A stretch of DNA of 34,656 nucleotides. Source: a virus. Location: the IMG/VR virus record IMGVR_UViG_3300045541_000152, positions 1 through 34,656 of that record; one strand, given 5' to 3'. The position numbers were made by a program, and so were the translations under genes. The notes under the pieces were generated by a model. That model did not search any database. It was given only the letters and a program-made list of their open reading frames with translations, and had not been told where the DNA came from. How positions within the stretch are numbered: position 1 is the stretch's first letter; every line of letters begins with the position of its first letter. This document shows, piece by piece, positions 4,459 to 30,555 of this stretch.

Positions 4459-7400
4459 ATGCCCACTTACGCCGTTACAGTCGAAGACGCCCAATATCAA
4501 GTAGACGCCCCGGACGAAAACACGGCGTGGCAGTGGGCGTACATGACGCATCAGCAGCGCCCGGCACCCAAACAGTCCACCGTCCTAAGCGAGCTCAAGC
4601 GCGGGTTCAAGCAGTTCGGGTCTTCCACCCAGACAGGACTTGAAGCGCTTACGTCCCCGGAAGAGGCTGCCAAGGCGGGTGTGGAGCGGGCGCAACGCAT
4701 CGCTGAGGAAGCTGGCGAGGGCGTGTCGTTTGCGCCGGTCAGGGAAGCCTACGAGAAACAGGGCATCTTGTCGGCGCTGGGCGAAGCGGCGTCTCAAGTG
4801 CCGCGGGCGGTGGCGGGCATGTTGCCCGCAGCGGCAGCCACGGTTGCCGGGGGTAAGGCTGGTGCGTTGGCTGGCACGGTAGCGGCCCCGGCGCTGGGGC
4901 CTTTTGGCCCGATGGCGGGCGGTCTGCTGGGTGCGGGTGCTGCGCTGTATGGGTCGATGGCGGGCTCGAACATCGAGCGCCAAGCGCAGGAACAGATGGA
5001 AGCCGGCAAGCCGGTGAGCATCGACAGGCCAGCAGCCTATGGCACAGCGGTGGGGCAGACCGCGCTGGAAGCCGTGGGCACCGGGGCTATCTTGGGCAAG
5101 CGGCTGGTGAAGGGCGTGCTGGGTATCGCTGATGATGCCAAGCTGGCTACAGACCAAGCTCGCCAAGCGCTGATTAAAGAAGCCCAGCGGTCGATGCTGG
5201 GGGCCACAGGCATGGGCGCCGTACGGGGTGCGGCAGAGATTCCGGTTGAGATTGCTCAAGCTGTGCTGGAGCGGGCGCAGGCTGGGCTGGATGTGATGTC
5301 CCCCGAGGCGTATGACGAATACGGCAACACCGTCTATCAAGCGGCGCTGGGTGGTGCCGGACTGGGCGCCCTGACGGGTGTGCCCTCTCGCGGGCAAGCC
5401 CGAGCGGAGCTGGCGCGAATACAGCCAACGCCTGAGCAGACGGCCCGCCAAGAGGCCCAGCAACGCATCCTCGCTGCGCAAGCAGCGCCCAGAGGCTTCA
5501 CCAAAAAAGGCGAAGGCGGCCAAGGCAAGCTCTTCACGCCCGAGGAATTGGAAGGGCTGGAAAAGCCTGAGGAAGCCGAGCTGCCGACTGACCTCGACGC
5601 GATTCAGGAAGAATTCAACAAGCTGGAGCGCCAAGCCCAGACGCCTGAGACACAGGCACGAATGGCAACGCTGGCCCAGCAGTATGAGACGATTAGGGCT
5701 AAGCAGCCTGAAGTACCTGCACCGACACCCGAAGGGCAGATGGAGCTCGGCTTCCCCACAGCAGAAAGCCCGGCAGCTGCGCAGCAAGAGCTCGACCTGC
5801 TGAAGAAGCAGAAGACCCCGGAAGCCCAAGCCCGCAAGGAAGAGCTCAAGGATTTCATCCGCGCTGCGGAAGAACGAGCCCGAGCCGAGGCGCCCAAAGG
5901 CTACACCAAGGAAGGCCAAGGCCTGCTCTTCACGCCCGCCGAGATGCGAGAGTCTGGGCTCAAGCGCATGCGCGAGCCGACAGAGGCTGAGCCCACTGCG
6001 CCTACGCCCGGCCAGCTAAGACAGGCTGGACAGAAACAACTCCCGCTGGTGCCGGCAACCGCCACTGCGGCTCCAGCCCCGGCAGCGGAAGCCCTGCCTC
6101 CAGTGACCGAGCCTGTGCCCGAGCCCACGCTTGCACCCAAGCGCGCGGTGCCGCCGGAACTCCAGCCTGTCATGGACAAACTCACCGCCGCCGGTGTGCG
6201 CCCGGAAGTGCGGGCATGGGCAGAAAAGGGGCAAAACCGTCCGTTCTTGCGTAAGCTGATGGGCATGGCTGACATGGCGCCCGAGGCCGCGCCGCAGGCG
6301 CGCAAGGCGCTCAAACTCAAAGAAGGTTCTGAAAAAGCGGAGATATTCGATGCGCTCTTCCCGACTCCCGGAGTTCCTGCATTTGAACCTGCCCCCGGAA
6401 CAGGTGAGTCTCGCTTGGGCCTACTTGGCCAGCTTGGAGCTGTCACGCCGCCCGCAGCCCCTGCCCCCCGGGCTCGAAAGTCTGTCGGACGTGGAGTGGT
6501 ACCTGCTGGAGGAGTTGCTCCAGCAGCAGCTCCAGCTGAAGGCAAGCCAGCCGCTGCATTAAAGCCCAAAGTCTACCCGTCGCTCCCCCGCGCCGAGCAG
6601 TATTGGAACGACACCGCCGAAGCTGTTGGCGGCAAGAAGAAACCCTTCTCCGAGCTGACGCCCGCGCAGCGTGGTGCGTGGCGCACGGCTGTGCAAGCCG
6701 AGGATGCGCAAACAATTCGTGACGAATACTCCCGGATCGTAGCGGAGGAACCTGAAGCGCCGAAACGCAGCCCCGAGGAAGTTAAGGCTGCACGGAAAAA
6801 AGCACTTGAAGCGGAAGTGCTGGAGACCCGACGGGCGGCACGCCGGGCCAAGGAAACGGGCGAAGAAATGCCCAGCCTCGGCGGCGAGCGCACGCAGCAG
6901 GTGCAGGACTTCGAACAGACGCTGCGCGCAGCGCTCAACAAGTTCGGCCTGAAAGATGTTGGCCTGAAGCTGGTTAAGGGAATGCAAGACGCGGGGTCTT
7001 ACGCGCAGCAGCTTATCAAGATCGCTGCTGACTCAGCCAACCCAATCCGCACACTGCGGCACGAGGCTATCCACGCGCTGCGCGAGCTGGGGTTCTTCAC
7101 CGATGCGCAGTGGCAGTCGCTGTCCAAGATGGCCAAGGACAAGTGGATCGACCAATATCTCAAGCAGCGCAACGTGGACGGCAAGCCGCTGAAGGCTGGC
7201 GAGGAGTCGCGCTACGACGCCTACATGCGCGAGTATGACGGCAACATGGAGAAGATCACCGAGGAAGCAGTGGCCGATGCCTTTGCCGACTTCGATGCGA
7301 CCAAGCCGCCTGCCGGGATGGTTGCTGCACTCGTCGCCAAGCTGCGCAATCTGTTCCAAGCCATCAAGTCTGCGCTGGCCAACGTAGAGTCACCGGAACA

Positions 7401-10338
7401 GATCTTCGGCAAGGTTGAGAGGGGTGAGCTGAAAGAAGGTGCGCAAGAAGAAGGCGGCGAGAAGAAAAGCCTGCGCGACAGAGCGACTGCCAACTTCCTT
7501 CGGTGGTTTGGCGACAGCAAAGTGGTGGATAAAAACGGCAAATACAGCCTCACGGATGCCGACATTCGCAAGAGTTTGCGGACCAAAGCACCCAGCCCCA
7601 CCGAAGGCATCGCCGCGCAAAGCGAGCTGATGAAGGACGCGCCGAAATCGTTAGTGAAAACGCTGGGCGATGCGGTGCGCATCTTCATGGAAAAGGACGA
7701 TGTGCCTTTTATCACGCGGCTGCGCACGGAAATAACCGACGTGGCGGCGTCTTTGGAACGCAGGGCGGATGTGCTGTTCGATGGCGGGGTGCGGGATAAC
7801 ATCACCGGCCTGACTAATCCCATGCTGGTGGTGCGCCAAGCGCACGACCCGGCGCCGCTGTTCAATGCGTTTATGTCTTCCGGCTTGATCGACAAAGACC
7901 CGGTTGGGGGCCAGTACGTTGTAGGGGTCAAGAAAGACCCGGCTACTGGAAAAGTAGTCCCCACTGATGAGACCGGCCCGGGTGGGTCGATAGCGGAATT
8001 GCTTGTTGCCGTCAAAAACTGGAGTGAGAAAACCGGCATGGACTTTGAGCTGGCCTACGCTGAGGCCAGCAAGATGATCGAAGCCCGCCGCTTGGATGAA
8101 CTCCGCAAGGCAAATAAAGAGCGTGAGGAACTTTCCAAAAAGACGGGCGTAAAGCTGGACTTGTTCCCCATCCACAAGCTGGCGATGGAAGACAAAACTC
8201 GGGATGCGGACGAGCAGATCGACATCGCCCTGCGCGGGCTGAAGGCCAACCCGGACATCCAGAAGGTTGCCGACATGATGGATCAGCAGCGCGGCTACAT
8301 GATCGACAAGATGGCAGGTGTGGGGCGCATCTCGAAAGACACAGCGCAGGAGTGGAAAGACGCTGCCGGATACGCGTCATTTGAGCGCGTTGAGGACTTG
8401 TTCAGCAAGTACATCCCGACGCGCGGCTCAGGCCGTGGGCTGGCGCAGATGCGGTCCCTGCCGCAGTTTGTGGGCACCACGCAGCGGGAAGTGGGCAACG
8501 TGATCGACAATCACGTGAAGCTGATGTCGTGGATGCTCACCCAGACATTGAAACAAGATGCCACATCCTCGACGCTGAACTTGTTGGCTGATCTTGGCTT
8601 GGCCAAGCGCTTGTATGGCGATGAAAAAGCAGCCACCAACAAGAGCAACGTAGTGGCGGTCTACAAGAACGGCAAGAAGCAGTACTTCGAGGTGCGCTCA
8701 CATTACGATGCGGTGGCGTTCCGTGATGCGCCGGAAGTGAAGGGCACAATGGTGAAGCTCTTCACAGAAGTGTCGAACATCCTGCGTAAGCTTGTGACGG
8801 TAATGCCGCCGTTCGTAGCCAAGCAGGTGACGGACGATATTCAACGGGCGTTTATTACGTCTGGGGTGCGAGAGCCCTCGAAGCTGATTGTGCCTGCGGT
8901 CACAAATTTCCTGCGGATTGCCGGGCACGAGCTGGTGTTCGGCAAGGACCACCCGTTCACCAAGGAGTTTGCCAAGAAAGGCTTGGCCGGCAACATCGAC
9001 TACAACGCTAGCAACCCGGCGGAGACGGTGCTGTTCAGCATGGGCTATTCCAAGCGCGGATGGCTCAGCGCGCTGCATCACCGGCTGGAGTCAGTGACCC
9101 GGGCGTCGGACTTGGCCATGCGGAAGGCGATCTACGACCGCACCATGAAGGAAGAGAGTGAGGATGTGGGGCTGGCCACAGCGCGAGCTCGGGAGTTCAT
9201 CAACTTCCGCCGGCGTGGTGCCAGCAAGACGGTGAGTATGGCGATTGCCACGATCCCCTTCTTCAACGCTTACTTGCAGTCGAACGACCTTTTGTACCGC
9301 AGCATGATTGGCCGGGGCTCCAGCACCACGGAGCGGGCTGTGGCCAAGCGGTTGTTTTGGACGCAGGCTGCCAAGATGACGACGTTTGCGTTGATCTACG
9401 CGCTGGCCAACAGCGACGATGAGGAATACGACAAGCTGTCATTCGAAGAGAAGGCCAACAACTGGGTGGTGGACGGCAAGAAGCTGCCCGCACCGGGTGA
9501 CATGGCTGCGCTGTTCAAGGTGCCGGTGGAAGCGCTGGTGCATTACATGAGCCGGCAGGGCACTGCGGAGGAGCAGCTGACCAGCGAAGTGGTGAAGCAG
9601 GTGCTGGGCTACACCTACGAGCAGTTTGTGGGTCGGGTGACGCCAGTGCCGCAGGCGATCCGCCCTGTGGCGGAAGCGCTGATGAACCACTCAATGCTGA
9701 CCGGGCGCCCGCTGGTGGGCACCTACCAGAAGGGGCTGCCGGAGGAGTTTCAGACCGTCAGCACGACCAGCGAGCTTGCCAAGGCGATTGCGAAGTTCTC
9801 GCACAACAACATCGTCGACCCGATCACGGACACGCCGCTGGACTTGTCGCCCATCGTTATCGACAACACTATCCGCGGGTACTTGGGCGGGGTGGTGCCG
9901 CTGATGAACATGCTGATCGACCAGATGGTGAACCCGAACAAGACCGACAGGCCGCTGAGCAGGTATTGGTTCCTCGGGCAGTACCTCACACCCGAGGTGC
10001 CGAGCGGGCCGAAGGATGAGTTTTACGATCTGGTGAACCGGGTGATGCCGGTCAAGCGGGCGCTGGACGATCTGGCTAAGAAAGACATCGACGCCGCGAT
10101 GAAGTATTACGAAAAGAACGCCGATAAGCTGAAGATGGCGGAGCTGGTGAACACCGCGCTGCAAACTGTCCGGCAGACTCGGCAATACATCAACTGGCTC
10201 GACAGCAAAAACGGTGCCGCGGCGATTGAAAGCAGTGCCGAGCGCCTGAAGCTGAAGCAGGAAGCCGAGCGGTATTTGAATGACAACTTGGAGTGGGTGC
10301 GGGCAGCCAAGGCGCAGATTTTCGGCAACAAGGACTGA
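4459..10338 (+). CDS. Giant polyvalent internal virion protein with HEXXH motif
   Basis: A 1959-residue protein. Residues about 117-169 are Gly/Ala-rich and hydrophobic, a possible membrane-active segment. Residues about 320-700 are a Pro/Ala/Glu-rich linker zone holding two copies of a 'P-[RK]-G-[FY]-T-K' / 'LFTP' motif (near 344 and 479). Residues 868-872 read HEAIH in 'LRHEAIHALREL', a zincin-type metalloprotease signature. The C-terminal half (about 1060-1750) resembles the large polyvalent protein associated domains (LPD38-like) of phage polyvalent proteins, including the hydrophobic 'ATIPFFNAYLQSNDLLYR' stretch near 1597. Such proteins are thought to be injected with the DNA and to act early in the host. 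A T7-gp16-like internal core role is another possibility. Last gene of the rightward late block. Confidence 0.75.
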   Translation: MPTYAVTVEDAQYQVDAPDENTAWQWAYMTHQQRPAPKQSTVLSELKRGFKQFGSSTQTGLEALTSPEEAAKAGVERAQRIAEEAGEGVSFAPVREAYEKQGILSALGEAASQVPRAVAGMLPAAAATVAGGKAGALAGTVAAPALGPFGPMAGGLLGAGAALYGSMAGSNIERQAQEQMEAGKPVSIDRPAAYGTAVGQTALEAVGTGAILGKRLVKGVLGIADDAKLATDQARQALIKEAQRSMLGATGMGAVRGAAEIPVEIAQAVLERAQAGLDVMSPEAYDEYGNTVYQAALGGAGLGALTGVPSRGQARAELARIQPTPEQTARQEAQQRILAAQAAPRGFTKKGEGGQGKLFTPEELEGLEKPEEAELPTDLDAIQEEFNKLERQAQTPETQARMATLAQQYETIRAKQPEVPAPTPEGQMELGFPTAESPAAAQQELDLLKKQKTPEAQARKEELKDFIRAAEERARAEAPKGYTKEGQGLLFTPAEMRESGLKRMREPTEAEPTAPTPGQLRQAGQKQLPLVPATATAAPAPAAEALPPVTEPVPEPTLAPKRAVPPELQPVMDKLTAAGVRPEVRAWAEKGQNRPFLRKLMGMADMAPEAAPQARKALKLKEGSEKAEIFDALFPTPGVPAFEPAPGTGESRLGLLGQLGAVTPPAAPAPRARKSVGRGVVPAGGVAPAAAPAEGKPAAALKPKVYPSLPRAEQYWNDTAEAVGGKKKPFSELTPAQRGAWRTAVQAEDAQTIRDEYSRIVAEEPEAPKRSPEEVKAARKKALEAEVLETRRAARRAKETGEEMPSLGGERTQQVQDFEQTLRAALNKFGLKDVGLKLVKGMQDAGSYAQQLIKIAADSANPIRTLRHEAIHALRELGFFTDAQWQSLSKMAKDKWIDQYLKQRNVDGKPLKAGEESRYDAYMREYDGNMEKITEEAVADAFADFDATKPPAGMVAALVAKLRNLFQAIKSALANVESPEQIFGKVERGELKEGAQEEGGEKKSLRDRATANFLRWFGDSKVVDKNGKYSLTDADIRKSLRTKAPSPTEGIAAQSELMKDAPKSLVKTLGDAVRIFMEKDDVPFITRLRTEITDVAASLERRADVLFDGGVRDNITGLTNPMLVVRQAHDPAPLFNAFMSSGLIDKDPVGGQYVVGVKKDPATGKVVPTDETGPGGSIAELLVAVKNWSEKTGMDFELAYAEASKMIEARRLDELRKANKEREELSKKTGVKLDLFPIHKLAMEDKTRDADEQIDIALRGLKANPDIQKVADMMDQQRGYMIDKMAGVGRISKDTAQEWKDAAGYASFERVEDLFSKYIPTRGSGRGLAQMRSLPQFVGTTQREVGNVIDNHVKLMSWMLTQTLKQDATSSTLNLLADLGLAKRLYGDEKAATNKSNVVAVYKNGKKQYFEVRSHYDAVAFRDAPEVKGTMVKLFTEVSNILRKLVTVMPPFVAKQVTDDIQRAFITSGVREPSKLIVPAVTNFLRIAGHELVFGKDHPFTKEFAKKGLAGNIDYNASNPAETVLFSMGYSKRGWLSALHHRLESVTRASDLAMRKAIYDRTMKEESEDVGLATARAREFINFRRRGASKTVSMAIATIPFFNAYLQSNDLLYRSMIGRGSSTTERAVAKRLFWTQAAKMTTFALIYALANSDDEEYDKLSFEEKANNWVVDGKKLPAPGDMAALFKVPVEALVHYMSRQGTAEEQLTSEVVKQVLGYTYEQFVGRVTPVPQAIRPVAEALMNHSMLTGRPLVGTYQKGLPEEFQTVSTTSELAKAIAKFSHNNIVDPITDTPLDLSPIVIDNTIRGYLGGVVPLMNMLIDQMVNPNKTDRPLSRYWFLGQYLTPEVPSGPKDEFYDLVNRVMPVKRALDDLAKKDIDAAMKYYEKNADKLKMAELVNTALQTVRQTRQYINWLDSKNGAAAIESSAERLKLKQEAERYLNDNLEWVRAAKAQIFGNKD

Positions 10339-15189: not shown

Positions 15190-16734
15190 TTAACTAATTT
15201 CCTGCTTATATAGCTCGACTAATGATTGATGCAGATCGATCTTGCTTTGTAGCATGGTGTACATACGTTTTTCGACTGGGCTCCCTTGTAAGTGCGTGAC
15301 GGTGACGTTGCGTGTTTGTCCTTGGCGGTGTGCGCGTGCGTTGGCTTGTAAATACATTTCGGTGGAGGACACAGGCCCCCACCATACGATCTGATCTGCC
15401 CGGGTGAGCGTGATGCCGTGCGCAGTGGCCTGCGGCACGAGCAACAGCACCCGAGGGTTGTCCTGAGTTTGGAAGCGCTTGATGATCTCTGCCCGAGCGC
15501 CCGCAGCGATGCCGCCGTGGATGGTGTCCACGGTGAAGGCAGTGAGCTCGTCGCGCAGCATCTCAATGACGTGCCGGAAGGGCACGAACACCAGCACCTT
15601 GCGGTCGGTCTGCTCGATGATACTAACAAGCTCGGCCACGCGATTCTTGATGTCAAATTGCACAACTTCTTTGGCATCAGTGTAAACACACCCACAAGAA
15701 ATTTGCAGGAGCTTGTTGAGCATGCTGGCTGCGTTGGCCGCGGTGATCTCTTCACCGGCGGCGCGGGTAATCATCTCTTGCTTGATGGCGTTGTAGTATT
15801 TCTGCTGCTGCGGTGTAAGGGGCACCTCCCGGGTCGCATAGAGCAGATCGGGCAAGTCCAAGCATTCTTCTTTCGTGTACCGAATAGCCGGCTGTAGCGC
15901 GTCATGCACAATAGTCTGAGAGTCATTGCGTGGCACCCATTTGTACTGCGTGATTTTGGTCATCACCTTATCACGCCATGCGCCGAAGAAACGCGGCACA
16001 TTGTCAGGGTTGACCAGCTTGGCAAGGCCATAGGCATCGAGCGGCGACTGTGAGGCCGGGGTGCCGGTCATCATCCACAGCCGGGTGTCGGCACGGATGA
16101 GCGAGGCGAGAGCCTTCCAGCGATCTGTGGACACGCTTTTTACTGCATTGGCTTCGTCGACAATGATAAGATCAAACCCGCCAGCCGCGAGTGCAGGAGT
16201 GACCACCTTTACGCCGTCGAAATTGATGATGACGAACTCGTAGTTGCCGGCGATCACAGCTTCGCGCTTTTTTCTGTCGCCCGTGGCGATGCCCACGGTG
16301 CGGTGCATGACTGTCTTGAACAAGTCTGACCGCCACGCGGTGTCCATGATCGACACCGGACAAACCACCAACACCCGCGACACCCGGCCCTGATTCATGA
16401 GGTAGTCGGCAGCCCACGCTGCGGCGCTGGTCTTGCCTGTGCCGGGCTCGTTGAAACAGAAACACCGTGGGTGCGTGGCCAGAAACGCAGCCGTGGTGCG
16501 CTGGTGGTCGAACGGCTTATACACCCCCGGCCAATCGTAAGTGCCCAGTATGGGATGTGGCGGCGCCTTGATCTTGAGGTTGCGCAGAATCTGCACCTCG
16601 TCCGGGCCCCAATTGACGAGGATTTTGGCGAGCGTGCCGTTGCGCTCAAGAATATGAGACTTCGGGATCAGGGCTTTGATCTGATCCGCTTTGCGCGTGA
16701 CAAACAGCAGCGCGCGGTTCTCCACGATCTGCAT
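15190..16734 (-). CDS. SNF2-family (superfamily 2) DNA helicase
   Basis: A 514-residue ATPase. Walker A is 'NEPGTGKT' (residues 95-102), the motif II position reads DEAN (193-196) instead of DEAH, motif III is 'MTGTP' (222-226), and motif VI is 'ANARAHRQGQTR' (464-475). 'VLVFVPFRH' and 'DTIHGGI' mark the C-terminal RecA-like domain. Length fits a minimal phage SNF2 helicase without extra domains. Such proteins remodel replication or recombination intermediates. It lies in the replication operon between the HNH and Gam-like genes. Confidence 0.85.
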   Translation of the reverse strand: MQIVENRALLFVTRKADQIKALIPKSHILERNGTLAKILVNWGPDEVQILRNLKIKAPPHPILGTYDWPGVYKPFDHQRTTAAFLATHPRCFCFNEPGTGKTSAAAWAADYLMNQGRVSRVLVVCPVSIMDTAWRSDLFKTVMHRTVGIATGDRKKREAVIAGNYEFVIINFDGVKVVTPALAAGGFDLIIVDEANAVKSVSTDRWKALASLIRADTRLWMMTGTPASQSPLDAYGLAKLVNPDNVPRFFGAWRDKVMTKITQYKWVPRNDSQTIVHDALQPAIRYTKEECLDLPDLLYATREVPLTPQQQKYYNAIKQEMITRAAGEEITAANAASMLNKLLQISCGCVYTDAKEVVQFDIKNRVAELVSIIEQTDRKVLVFVPFRHVIEMLRDELTAFTVDTIHGGIAAGARAEIIKRFQTQDNPRVLLLVPQATAHGITLTRADQIVWWGPVSSTEMYLQANARAHRQGQTRNVTVTHLQGSPVEKRMYTMLQSKIDLHQSLVELYKQEIS

Positions 16735-16758
16735 TCGATTACCTAATTGTGAACAGCG

Positions 16759-17016
16759 TTATTTGACTTTGTTCGTACTGGTACGCGCAAAGCTGCGATT
16801 CTTCGACTTGGGCACAGCCCGTAGATTGCTGAGTTTGCTAGTGCCGCCCTTGCTCAAGGGCTTCACGTGATCGACATCCATGCTGTCCGGCAGCTTACCA
16901 TGCGCCTTTTCATACGCGCGCCGAGCCTTGTGCCGCTCGGACTGCTTCTTGAGCTGCTCGGGTGTGCCCTGATAGAGCTCGTATTCGCGTTTGTAATTGC
17001 GTGGTTTTGTAGGCAC
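16759..17016 (-). CDS. Small HNH endonuclease
   Basis: An 85-residue basic protein, GTG start with GGAG about 9 nt upstream. The HNH core reads 'MDVDHVKPLSKGG' (residues 46-58), with Asn64 in 'LSNLRAV' and a final 'SKNRS'. The N-terminus is strongly basic ('KREYELYQ', 'RHKARRAYEKAHG'). Free-standing HNH enzymes of this size in phages can be homing nucleases or act in packaging; away from terminase and beside a structured repeat region, a homing or site-specific nicking role is more likely. A near-perfect AT-rich palindrome lies 20 nt upstream of its start. Confidence 0.75.
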   Translation of the reverse strand: MPTKPRNYKREYELYQGTPEQLKKQSERHKARRAYEKAHGKLPDSMDVDHVKPLSKGGTSKLSNLRAVPKSKNRSFARTSTNKVK

Positions 17017-17035
17017 TTAGCGCACTCCGTAGAGT

Positions 17036-17057
17036 TAAAGTAAAAATTTTTACCTTA
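17036..17057. promoter_or_regulatory. AT-rich palindrome upstream of HNH gene
   Basis: The core GTAAAAATTTTTAC (17040-17053) is a perfect palindrome and extends to 22 bp with one mismatched pair. It is strikingly AT-rich in a GC-rich genome and lies 20 nt upstream of the HNH start. It may be a protein-binding operator, a DNA-unwinding element or the HNH enzyme's own target. Confidence 0.5.
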
Positions 17058-17059
17058 CG

Positions 17060-17189
17060 CCAACACGGCTGGCGACTGGCTATCTGGCTCACCGCATCCG
17101 AAGAATACCTCTAGGCCTAGGGCTTCGGCTTGATGATGAGCTTACCAAGGTTTCGCGCTACCTCAGGCTCCAATCGCCATGCGTGTTGG
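17060..17189 (-). ncRNA. Structured repeat element, copy A
   Basis: The outer stem CCAACACG pairs with CGTGTTGG; an internal loop GCT opposite ATG follows, then an upper stem GGCGA/TCGCC, a C-A mismatch, and a short extension TGG/CCA. The interior is about 90 nt and contains an inverted pair around 17106-17138. Copy A lacks the side hairpin CTCCG-GAAAGA-CGGAG seen in B and C, but has another hairpin (GCCGG...CCGGC, 17199-17217) at the matching place. Strand is assigned by the neighbouring leftward genes. Confidence 0.5.
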
Positions 17190-17299
17190 TTGTTGGTGGC
17201 CGGTGCTGATCTCCGGCTTTGACTCTCTCGTTCTGTTTCAGCGGGCCTAGTGGGTCGTATCGCCGCAATACGTGCATCAGCCTGCACATCCACCAACAC
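17117..17299 (-). CDS. Possible small ORF inside the structured region
   Basis: A 60-residue open frame starting GTG-TTG-GTG in the 3' arm of repeat copy B and running through copy A's right arm. It reads 'VDVQADARIAAIRP'...'RLEPEVARNLGKL'. It has no clear Shine-Dalgarno sequence. Its composition is plausible for a small basic protein, and its overlap with two repeat arms suggests it travels with the element. It may be translated or may be a chance frame in a structured RNA. Confidence 0.3.
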   Translation of the reverse strand: MLVDVQADARIAAIRPTRPAETERESQSRRSAPATNNQHAWRLEPEVARNLGKLIIKPKP

Positions 17300-17395
17300 G
17301 GCTGAGGACTGATTTTAAGTGAGCTACACTATAACCCGGTAGCGATCCGGATACACAATCCTCATGCGTGTTAGCCTCCGTCTTTCCGGAGTGTC
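17294..17395 (-). ncRNA. Structured repeat element, copy B
   Basis: CAACACG (17294-17300) pairs with CGTGTTa (17367-17373). The same GCT/ATG internal loop is followed by upper stem GAGGA (17304-17308)/TCCTC (17359-17363), then the same C-A mismatch as copy A. Read leftward, it is preceded by a 5-bp hairpin CTCCG-GAAAGA-CGGAG (17376-17391). A micro-ORF of 8 codons (MTLRKDGG) with AAGGA 5 nt upstream starts at 17400 and crosses this hairpin; a second micro-ORF starts at the ATG of the internal loop. Confidence 0.55.
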
Positions 17396-17404
17396 ATCTG
17401 TTCC

Positions 17405-17539
17405 TTACCCGTGAGGGCCTGACCAAAAGGATGTATACAGAAAACCAAACACCCCGTTGTCGGCAGAATCCCAACACGGCTGAGGGCTCCCCTCCGGTTT
17501 GGTTGTGCCGGATGGGCAAGCGAATGCCCGAGCCCTCAT
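17405..17539 (-). CDS. Possible micro-ORF starting inside repeat copy C
   Basis: A 44-codon frame whose ATG is the internal-loop ATG of copy C. A 13-codon micro-ORF (MQRTLRKDGAQHA) ends at this ATG in an ATGA overlap, so coupled translation is possible. The product would begin 'MRARAFACPSGTT'. The same arrangement (TLRKDG micro-ORF, then an ATG in the loop) occurs in copy B. It has no recognisable domain. Confidence 0.25.
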   Translation of the reverse strand: MRARAFACPSGTTKPEGSPQPCWDSADNGVFGFLYTSFWSGPHG

Positions 17540-17569
17540 GCGTGTTGCGCCCCGTCTTTCCGGAGTGTC
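17472..17569 (-). ncRNA. Structured repeat element, copy C
   Basis: CAACACG (17472-17478) pairs with CGTGTTG (17541-17547), with the GCT/ATG internal loop and a perfect upper stem GAGGGCTC (17482-17489)/GAGCCCTC (17530-17537). The side hairpin reads CTCCG-GAAAGA-CGGGG on the minus strand. The 18-nt block at 17552-17569 is identical to 17378-17395 of copy B. The upper stem differs from A and B at several pairs but each change is compensated, so base pairing rather than protein sequence appears to be kept. Confidence 0.6.
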
Positions 17570-17664
17570 CGTTGCATCAGCCGAGGGAGACTCCTATCCG
17601 AGGAAGGTCGGCCTGCAACTGCCACGGTTTTGCCCCACTCATGGCTGGGGGTTCATGTCTACAC

Positions 17665-18321
17665 TTACCGGTGTTCGCATGCCTCGTTGGTCAGCGGGCA
17701 GAACCGGCACAACGGGGAGGGCTTCGCCCCCCACGCGCCATGCTCCACTGCTGACTCGATCATACTAGCGCGTCCGGCCCACTTTGACCAGATGGCGGGC
17801 AAATCTTTGCGGGTGAATTCTGCTTTCACAACTTCCTTGGCCACGACAAATAGCAGGATGCCAGAGACGTGCGTGATTTCAGGATGGTGAGCCATCACCA
17901 TGGCGGCCATGAGTTCGAGCTGGTCGGGGTCGGCAAAGCGCGCAGACTTCCCGGTCTTGTAGTCGGCCACCCGAGCTTTGGTTTTGTTCACCGCCAAGAA
18001 GTCGGGCACGCCCCTGAACCAGACGTCCGGCGCGAAGAAGTCGCAGGGTGTGAAGTCTGCTCGCACGGCCATCTTTTGCTCGCAACGGATGTCCCCTTTG
18101 ACCTGCTTGAGTGGCGCCACAAAGGGCTCGAAAGATTTGAACTGCTCGGGCAGGGGCTTGCCGTCCCGGATGTATTCTTCAAAGGCTTTGTGCACGGCTG
18201 TGCCGTACAGCGTGGCCTCGGTGTCCTGAGACTTGAACTTCTTGAGGATGCGTACCTCGTGATAACGCCGCGGGCAGCCCTCAAAATCCTTAACTGCGGA
18301 ATAAGAATGAGCGAGTGGCAT
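17665..18321 (-). CDS. Cas4/RecB-like PD-(D/E)XK exonuclease with Fe-S cysteines
   Basis: A 218-residue nuclease. His44 in 'GTAVH', Asp107 in 'RGVPDF', and the 'VADYKTGK' motif (Asp120, Lys122) form a PD-(D/E)XK site; Gln134 fits the RecB QxxxY-like helix. Cys16 ('GCPRR') together with Cys205, Cys208 and Cys215 in 'CRFCPLTNEAC' gives the split four-cysteine pattern of Cas4/AddB-type 4Fe-4S nucleases. Such enzymes process DNA ends in phage recombination or replication. Its AAGGAA ribosome site is buried in a hairpin directly after the polymerase gene, so translation may be controlled. Confidence 0.8.
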   Translation of the reverse strand: MPLAHSYSAVKDFEGCPRRYHEVRILKKFKSQDTEATLYGTAVHKAFEEYIRDGKPLPEQFKSFEPFVAPLKQVKGDIRCEQKMAVRADFTPCDFFAPDVWFRGVPDFLAVNKTKARVADYKTGKSARFADPDQLELMAAMVMAHHPEITHVSGILLFVVAKEVVKAEFTRKDLPAIWSKWAGRASMIESAVEHGAWGAKPSPLCRFCPLTNEACEHR

Positions 18322-20803: not shown

Positions 20804-20879
20804 GCTGGCGTAGCTCAGTTGGCAGAGCACTCGCCTTGTAAGCGAGATGTCGAGGGTTCGATTCCTTCCGCCAGCACCA
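20804..20879 (+). tRNA. tRNA-Thr (anticodon TGT), CCA encoded
   Basis: The full cloverleaf is visible: acceptor GCTGGCG/CGCCAGC, D-arm GCTC/GAGC with AGTTGGC loop, anticodon stem CTCGC/GCGAG with loop CTTGTAA, T-arm GAGGG/CCTTC with loop TTCGATT, then A and CCA (20876-20879). The anticodon TGT at 20837-20839 reads ACA. It is on the opposite strand to all neighbouring genes, so it needs its own promoter or readthrough. Phage tRNAs often supply codons rare in the host; a host-derived attachment site is less likely as no integrase is seen. Confidence 0.95.
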
Positions 20880-29412: not shown

Positions 29413-30555
29413 TCAGCCTCCGATGTGCACGGCGGTGCCGTAGGGTGGTCTAATGGTTAGACTCGTGAGCGCCCACAGCACGGGGTAGCCGGGTGGGGTG
29501 CCGAACGGCGTCTCGCCGTCAGTGAGCACGACACAGGCGTCGGGCTGGATGCGCTTGGCGTGCAGGTAATCGAACGCCACGGGCAGGTTGGTGCCGCCAC
29601 CGCCACGGGGTTGCAGGTCTGCTACAGCAAACTGGCCGTGCTCGAAGGTTTGATGGGCGGCAACGCGAGTGTCGACATACAGCACGTCGATGAAGGCGGG
29701 CTTGACCTGCTCGATGATGGCAGCAAGCTCGGAGGCGAACCGCGTGGCAATGTCCGTGCCGAAGCACGAGCCGCTGGTGTCGAACACGACAGCTAAGCGC
29801 GTCATAGTAATGCCCTGCATGGACGGCAGGTATATGTCGTCGGCTAGGTAGCGTCTGTTCGGCCTGCGCCACGTCGACTCGTCACGGCCTGCACATGACT
29901 CGGACACAAACTCACGCAACACCTTGCGCCAGTCTTGCTTGGGGTGCAGCAGCTCACCGAATGCCGGTGTGTGGTCAAGCCCGAGGGCGTCAGCCCTGCG
30001 CTTGGCGAGTATCTCGCCTTGGCGTAGTGCTTGGTCTATCTCGTGAGCACGGCGGGCTTGCGTGGTCTGCTCGTCGTCTGGGTTGCCTTCGGTGGGCGTG
30101 TGCTCGTCGAGGGTAGGGGTTGTGGGTGGGTCTTGCTTGAGGTCGTCGAATATCTGCTTGACCGACCAGCCACGGTATCTGGTGTTGGGTTGCACGCCTA
30201 CGGTGGGCATGGCGAGGAAGTCGTCTTCTCCGTTCATGTCCATCAGCGACAGGTTCACGAAGTGATCCATCGCAATGTTGGCGAGCTGGGCATCCTCGTC
30301 CATGAGGGTGCGCCACATGCGCAGGTGCTGGTATGCCTTGTGTTGCTGCTCGTGCAGGATGAGCAAGCGCAGTTGCGGGTCGGTTAGCGTTTGCACAAAC
30401 GCGTCGCCGTACCACACGTTCCACCCGTCAGTGCGGGCAGTGGGTGAGTCGTCTACGGTCGTCTTGCCGCACGCCATGATGCCGCTGTAACGGCAGAAGC
30501 GTGGGTGGCGCATGATGGCAATCTTGGCCTTGTTGATACGGTCGGTACTGTTCAT
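29413..30555 (-). CDS. VWA protein with N-terminal metallopeptidase-like domain
   Basis: A 380-residue protein. Residues 68-72 read HEQQH, a zincin motif, with 'NIAMDHFVN' (93-101) as the possible third-ligand helix. The C-terminal von Willebrand A domain has the MIDAS 'DTSGS' (259-263), 'RGGGGTN' (317-323) and 'LTDGETP' (344-350). This two-domain type (DUF2201-like) is usually paired with a MoxR ATPase, here at 33152-34204. Such pairs act as chaperones in metal insertion or complex remodelling (compare CobS/CobT, NorQ/NorD). A perfect palindrome site lies inside its last codons, writing 'SLTIRP'. Confidence 0.8.
   Translation of the reverse strand: MNSTDRINKAKIAIMRHPRFCRYSGIMACGKTTVDDSPTARTDGWNVWYGDAFVQTLTDPQLRLLILHEQQHKAYQHLRMWRTLMDEDAQLANIAMDHFVNLSLMDMNGEDDFLAMPTVGVQPNTRYRGWSVKQIFDDLKQDPPTTPTLDEHTPTEGNPDDEQTTQARRAHEIDQALRQGEILAKRRADALGLDHTPAFGELLHPKQDWRKVLREFVSESCAGRDESTWRRPNRRYLADDIYLPSMQGITMTRLAVVFDTSGSCFGTDIATRFASELAAIIEQVKPAFIDVLYVDTRVAAHQTFEHGQFAVADLQPRGGGGTNLPVAFDYLHAKRIQPDACVVLTDGETPFGTPPGYPVLWALTSLTIRPPYGTAVHIGG
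29448..29462. promoter_or_regulatory. GTCTAA-N3-TTAGAC palindrome, site 3
   Basis: A perfect copy (centre TGG) inside the last part of the VWA gene and 36 nt upstream of the start at 29411. Its place in a coding segment shows the DNA motif was kept or gained despite coding demands. Confidence 0.6.

Follow-up and report, generated by a model that had tools for sequence, protein, structure and literature searches.

A minus-strand intergenic region of a phage genome holds what we take, with high confidence, to be a member of a new RNA family whose anatomy is derived from covariation. The virus record that makes up the window (the whole stretch of DNA that was analysed) is 34,656 bases long, and a region of about 650 bases within it (Table 1) would encode a non-coding RNA of roughly 0.5-0.65 kb, in sense orientation in the phage replication operon. 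The putative RNA is assembled from two kinds of modules, namely S-elements, arms whose base and internal loop are conserved and whose tip is hypervariable, and a core, the closing stem of which would hold two hairpins able to kiss through six nucleotides. These modules appear to vary in number and order among phages of Proteobacteria, and to lie next to tRNA genes in many of them. Structure and distribution are well supported, and function is inferred. Our best explanation is that of a new modular family of large phage RNAs, similar to ROOL and GOLLD and probably acting at the translation apparatus, a reading that we regard as an even call. On a translation-related function as such, which is inferred without any functional or expression data, we lean marginally towards doubt.

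Table 1. Features of the RNA-bearing region of the window, and tmRNA-type segments of related loci
Sequence	Feature	Position	Strand	Basis
Window	PD-(D/E)XK exonuclease gene, flanking the RNA region	17665-18321	-	
Window	RNA-bearing intergenic region	17017..17664	-	ORF list, protein families, fold; RNA ends inferred
Window	5'-most hairpin, GUUGCAGGCCGA ... UCGGCUGAUGCAAC	17571..17619	-	Sequence and fold only
Window	GAAAGA-loop hairpin before S-element C, CUCCG/CGGGG	17550..17565	-	
Window	S-element copy C: lower stem, 3x3 internal loop CAU/AGC, upper stem GAGGGCUC/GAGCCCUC, 40-nt variable distal part	17472..17547	-	
Window	GAAAGA-loop hairpin before S-element B, CUCCG/CGGAG	17376..17391	-	
Window	S-element copy B: upper stem GAGGAUUG/CAGUCCUC; directly 5' of core	17294..17373	-	
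Window	Core module: closing stem, hairpin 1, hairpin 2	17191..17298	-	
Window	Core closing stem UUGGUG/CACCAA	17291-17296 with 17193-17198	-	
Window	Core hairpin 1	17272-17287	-	
Window	Hairpin 1 loop segment GCUGAU, complementary to hairpin 2 loop	17276..17281	-	Covariation
Window	Core hairpin 2	17199-17217	-	
Window	Hairpin 2 loop segment AUCAGC, other side of the proposed kissing interaction	17205..17210	-	Covariation
Window	S-element copy A: upper stem GGCGAUUG/CAGUCGCC, 92-nt variable distal part; directly 3' of core	17061..17188	-	
Window	Small HNH gene, flanking the RNA region on the other side	16759-17016	-	
L005 (P1)	tmRNA-type segment	2097-2340		
L006	tmRNA-type segment	1791-2037		
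L007	tmRNA-type segment	1662-1899		
L008	tmRNA-type segment	1671-1907		
L010	tmRNA-type segment	1537-1774		
L131 (Felix O1)	tmRNA-type segment	1467-1695		

The initial annotation of this DNA had described, on the plus strand, three copies of a structured element with a fixed GCT/ATG internal loop and upper stems that change with compensation (GGCGA/TCGCC, GAGGA/TCCTC and GAGGG/CCCTC), all of which we recovered. Within the window, CAACACGGCT is confined to positions 17061, 17294 and 17472, and CATGCGTGTT to 17178, 17363 and 17537. The lower stem, given as CAACACG/CGTGTTG for every copy, is correct except in copy B, whose 3' arm is CGTGTTA and forms a U·G wobble on the minus strand. A C-A mismatch said to be common to copies A and B, and to be a C-G pair in copy C, is indeed present on the plus strand; on the minus strand, these positions read U·G, U·G and C-G, which identifies the minus strand as that of the RNA. 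The GAAAGA-loop hairpins reported for copies B and C were also located, copy A having none. What had been missed is the core, the most conserved part, which is flanked by copies A and B (copy B and the core closing stem have three nucleotides in common, 17294-17296), and the element first noticed is only one module of a larger RNA. Transcription of the locus as one RNA, and the position of its ends, are inferred in the absence of transcription data, and no promoter-like site was found in positions 16700-17800 of the window.

When the region was compared with other sequences by blastn, the best conserved part proved to be the 107 bases between copies A and B, and not the three stems. Over these 107 nt, the core is 86% identical to Iodobacter phage phiPLPE, in which the match falls in unannotated DNA, and 81% identical to Alcaligenes phage CASP1. 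The loops of hairpin 1 (AGGCUGAU) and hairpin 2 (AGAUCAGCA) contain a perfect 6-nt complement, and the two hairpins are separated by a variable insert of 10-182 nt. The closing stem is GUGGUG/CACCAC or AUGGUG/CACCAU in other cores. Among 55 aligned core sequences, standard pairs occupy 97% of pair cells, and both-side changes are observed at 10 core pairs, compared to 5.1±1.1 in shuffled alignments (none of 500 shuffles reached this number). For example, closing-stem pair 3-136 is GC in 25 sequences and UA in 23, and pair 4-135 is GC in 25, UA in 20 and AU in 4. The kissing pair 19-123 is GC in 41 sequences, GU in 8, AU in 6 and never AC, all four combinations being allowed by the search. As cores were collected with a pattern fixing hairpin 2 and a regular expression for hairpin 1, the invariance of these hairpins is partly built in; closing-stem changes, the choice made at pair 19-123 and the insert are not. 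Model R1, whose training set included the window, matches the window strongly at the core alone (91.8 bits).

S-elements were searched by motif only, with no requirement for upper-stem pairing. Near cores, we detected 41 S-elements of the window type, i.e. the three of the window and 38 in 27 other contigs, and 24 of an enteric type (CAACAGGUAA ... UUnCCGUUG) in 22 contigs, including the P1 element at L005 1300-1730. In the window type, 319 of the 328 upper-stem cells are paired, versus 268±4 for arms exchanged at random among elements (maximum of 283 in 5,000 shuffles); in the enteric type, the corresponding figures are 190 of 192 versus 162±4 (maximum 182). Both types have an AUUG/CAGU top of the upper stem in common and are often found directly 5' of the core, and we thus consider them as a single module. 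An independent but weaker duplex test, in which the upstream stem of 31 of the 81 cores exceeded the 5% level of mismatched controls, also shows that the S-element module is common and not universal. Covarying homologues, the absence of which would have spoken against the initial annotation, are therefore numerous.

The element had been proposed to be a functional RNA or a single-strand DNA structure, and our results support the RNA side of this alternative. When the upper stems of the 65 S-elements of both types are read on the core strand, they comprise 431 Watson-Crick, 78 G·U and 4 A·C pairs; on the opposite strand, the 78 G·U pairs would become mismatches. In addition, the minus strand of the window region folds with a z-score of -4.1 (none of 20 shuffles as stable), versus -2.0 for the plus strand (one of 20 as stable). 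A minus-strand RNA is thus the simplest reading. The wobble and folding asymmetries are joined by the sense orientation within a minus-strand operon, by the co-orientation of the RNA with tRNA genes in other phages, and by a tmRNA-like segment found on the same strand in relatives, all of which favour RNA over single-strand DNA. Near cores, 13 GAAAGA hairpins with 5-bp stems were found on the core strand versus one on the opposite strand. A coding explanation can be dismissed, as insert lengths cover all three residues modulo 3 and no protein families were found; an overlapping ORF of 60 amino acids matches no Pfam family.

The family is widely distributed. A relaxed search (E-value limit of 10, at which single weak rows may be due to chance) returned partial matches to the region in 163 phage records, many of them made up of the same pair of conserved blocks with a variable stretch in between. 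The hairpin 2 pattern is present in more than 120 IMG/VR contigs, as well as in 30 contigs from GTDB species genomes, for the most part of Enterobacterales and Burkholderiales; in two families, the core model matched 13 of 149 and 9 of 151 genomes. One enteric core is found over at least 80% of its length in 813 (about 15%) of 5,426 complete E. coli genomes, and a probe from IME11 comprising tag, pseudoknots, S-element and core matched 765 phage records at least in part. No match was found in the plasmid collection. The DNA that carries the core is intergenic and for the most part unannotated, and tRNA genes are frequent neighbours, which in relatives adjoin or even interrupt the RNA. With Rfam 15, at gathering and relaxed thresholds, no family was assigned to the window region, the sole match being a chance snoRNA. 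Likewise, searches of open-access papers on phage tmRNA-like, large phage and Felix O1 RNAs yielded no account of the family, and none that contains the tag sequences presented below.

Two annotation features are associated with these loci. The P1 reference record has two ORFs, plp and upl, that run over the RNA locus on the opposite strand (L275 573-1142, corresponding to NC_005856 69472-70041) and are perhaps not genes. The RNA also has HNH endonuclease genes as neighbours, both in the window and in Felix O1 (L131 774-1259 and 1747-2139), and these may help to spread it. Despite the adjoining HNH gene, the region matches no Rfam model of a self-splicing intron or of HEARO RNA.

In enteric relatives, namely P1, IME11, Salmonella phage STGO-35-1, Klebsiella phages Magnus and KP591P1, and prophages, the core has on its 5' side, 279-747 nt away, a segment resembling the mRNA-like half of tmRNA. 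The segment comprises a pseudoknot, AUAAAU or GUAAAU, and then a tag of ten codons starting with GCA AAC GAU ..., such as ANDDVVLMAA*, ANDDLMMVAA* (P1) or ANEEMYLAVA*. The stop codon of the tag lies in a hairpin, and a second pseudoknot is present, which covaries (CAAGG/CCUUG, CGGGG/CCCCG, UGAGG/CCUCA; CCGA/UCGG, CCAG/CUGG, CCAA/UUGG). In Felix O1, such a segment (tag ANDNVFLAVA*) lies in the midst of tRNA genes and precedes a stem resembling an S-element, and no core was detected further on in the stretch read. Tag ORFs were detected on the core strand in 15 of 160 core neighbourhoods, versus none of 160 on the other strand, although the 15 include several near-identical relatives of P1, and the tag itself had served to retrieve some of the loci. 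Differences between nearest-neighbour tags (20 distinct tags) amount to 18 synonymous and 13 nonsynonymous changes, the neutral expectation being 3.5 nonsynonymous changes per synonymous one. On this sequence evidence, the tag is under purifying selection, which suggests that ribosomes probably read the enteric segment. No tag ORF was found in the window or in other window-type loci (with a CACGCAUG-type stem).

These segments share with tmRNA (ssrA, whether one-piece or permuted) pseudoknot 1, the GCA resume codon, an AND-type tag ending in alanine, the stop-codon hairpin and the second pseudoknot, but they lack a detectable tRNA-like domain, and the window copy lacks all of these features. 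Several unrelated loci match the Rfam permuted tmRNA model below its cut-off of 47 bits (33.1, 29.4, 26.5 and 26.3 bits), and ARAGORN identifies no tmRNA. Neither ARAGORN nor Rfam revealed an alanine-accepting tRNA-like domain with a CCA end, although a separately encoded half is not excluded; where a promoter-like TTGACA sits right before pseudoknot 1, there is no upstream acceptor strand. In an exhaustive search, phage tmRNAs were found only in mycobacteriophages and in Bacillus phage G (PMC4131195), and a later ARAGORN survey reported tmRNA genes in 402 of 18,146 phages (PMC9004378).

The closest known systems include ROOL and GOLLD, which are phage RNAs located near tRNA islands that have kissing loops and form cages, GOLLD also binding ribosomes in pull-downs (PMC12286853). 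The present family resembles them in being large and structured, in its occurrence in phages and prophages and frequent proximity to tRNA genes, and in combining kissing loops with conserved and variable regions. Unlike them, it is built from other modules, including repeated S-elements, occurs in phages of Proteobacteria and has a tmRNA-like segment in its enteric members. As the Rfam models of ROOL and GOLLD yielded no match at either the gathering or the relaxed threshold, the RNA belongs to neither of these families. Proximity to tRNA genes is a feature of relatives; the sole tRNA gene of the window is 3.5 kb away on the other strand. By analogy with ROOL and GOLLD, the RNA may fold as a compact scaffold, with no evidence so far of a higher-order particle, and in the course of infection this scaffold would act on the translation apparatus of the host or together with it. 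Scaffolding would fall to the conserved bases and the core, and target specificity to the variable tips. As the window RNA has no tag, its own link to translation is by relationship only; ribosome contact, and any function of this tag-less version, are inferences. A bolder proposal is that a tmRNA-type tag template embedded in a modular scaffold RNA is translated without a tRNA-like domain, ribosomes being loaded onto it or released by it in an unfamiliar way, with the window RNA as a tag-less member; we consider this possible and no more than tentative.

The same observations can be read differently. The region might give rise to separate small RNAs, similar to STnc100 (RF02076) and PasD, that are cut from one precursor and whose hypervariable tips pair with host or phage mRNAs, the conserved stems providing only stability and processing. 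Both STnc100 and PasD are prophage sRNAs (one STnc100 copy was seen by Northern blot; PMC5331693), and they have the outer layout of the core, with a UGGUGAAU ... CACCA closing stem and two hairpins around a variable stretch, which in our cores covers the whole range of insert lengths given above. Moreover, P1, Klebsiella phage Magnus and Aeromonas phage ST4 each carry a sub-threshold STnc100 match close to the core and in its orientation (L005 829-949, L006 22-154 and L009 2059-2167). However, their loop sequences differ from those of the core, a 6-nt kissing interaction was sought by eye in STnc100 and not established, and RF02076 does not match the window. As kissing loops, closing-stem bases common to S-element and core and the recurring order of S-element then core rather suggest one folded RNA, and as separate sRNAs leave the enteric tag unexplained, we find this reading unlikely, if still worth keeping in mind. 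We are more sceptical of a decoy, whose tips would mimic tRNA or tmRNA and absorb nucleases or trans-translation factors of the host or of rivals, thereby shielding phage translation. A T-arm-like hairpin (GGUUCGAAUCC) is present in 6 of the 24 enteric S-element inserts (shuffled mean 0.02), tRNA genes adjoin or interrupt the RNA, and a mycobacteriophage carries a tmRNA reduced to the tRNA-like domain, a similar molecule inhibiting tmRNA, perhaps by SmpB titration (PMC4131195). Mycobacteriophage DS6A also has half a tmRNA, but its half is the tRNA-like one, and ours the mRNA-like one. The T-arm motif occurs in only 1 of the 41 window-type inserts, and tag codons selected as a peptide would not be needed by a decoy.

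The position of the window RNA, in sense between co-directional exonuclease and HNH genes, would also suit a cis-acting element of the replication operon involved in processing, attenuation or RNA stability. This is improbable, as cores elsewhere are found in unrelated contexts, often as a separate unit that lies next to tRNAs or is flanked by structural genes of the opposite strand, and as a promoter-like TTGACA lies just upstream in some relatives. Finally, CAAC...GTTG arms and extended hairpins give the element a superficial likeness to DNA-level structures such as integron-like sites, IS200/IS605-type hairpins, origins or protein-binding inverted repeats. We give this almost no credence: the excess of G·U over A·C pairs on one strand requires a structure of that strand, most simply RNA, the elements are co-linear with the core, and homologues lie beside tRNAs without any shared recombinase. 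We reject a single-strand DNA structure on the wobble asymmetry and the genomic context, and an integron attC site on the lack of cassette genes between copies and the strand-specific wobble pairs.

If a modular phage RNA is indeed the correct reading, a structured RNA family carried by such textbook phages as P1 and, in part, Felix O1 has been left unannotated, as has its core in some 15% of the complete E. coli genomes, and it would constitute a third class beside the large phage RNAs known near tRNA islands. What is new, and apparently undescribed, is thus a family of its own among large structured phage RNAs, one member of which is unusual in being derived from tmRNA. The selected tmRNA-type tag of the enteric members would also provide a testable link to the ribosome, for which GOLLD so far has a pull-down result.

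Other features of the window deserve mention. A tRNA-Thr (TGT) gene of the plus strand (20804-20879) is antisense to the genes around it, which are encoded by the minus strand. At 4459-10338, the window encodes a protein of 1,959 amino acids in which LPD38, near the end, is the sole recognised domain. The protein encoded at 29413-30555 has distant relatives (28-29% identity) in N4-like phages, some of them annotated as von Willebrand factor type A or HNH, and on the basis of such similarities the phage may be a distant N4-like relative.
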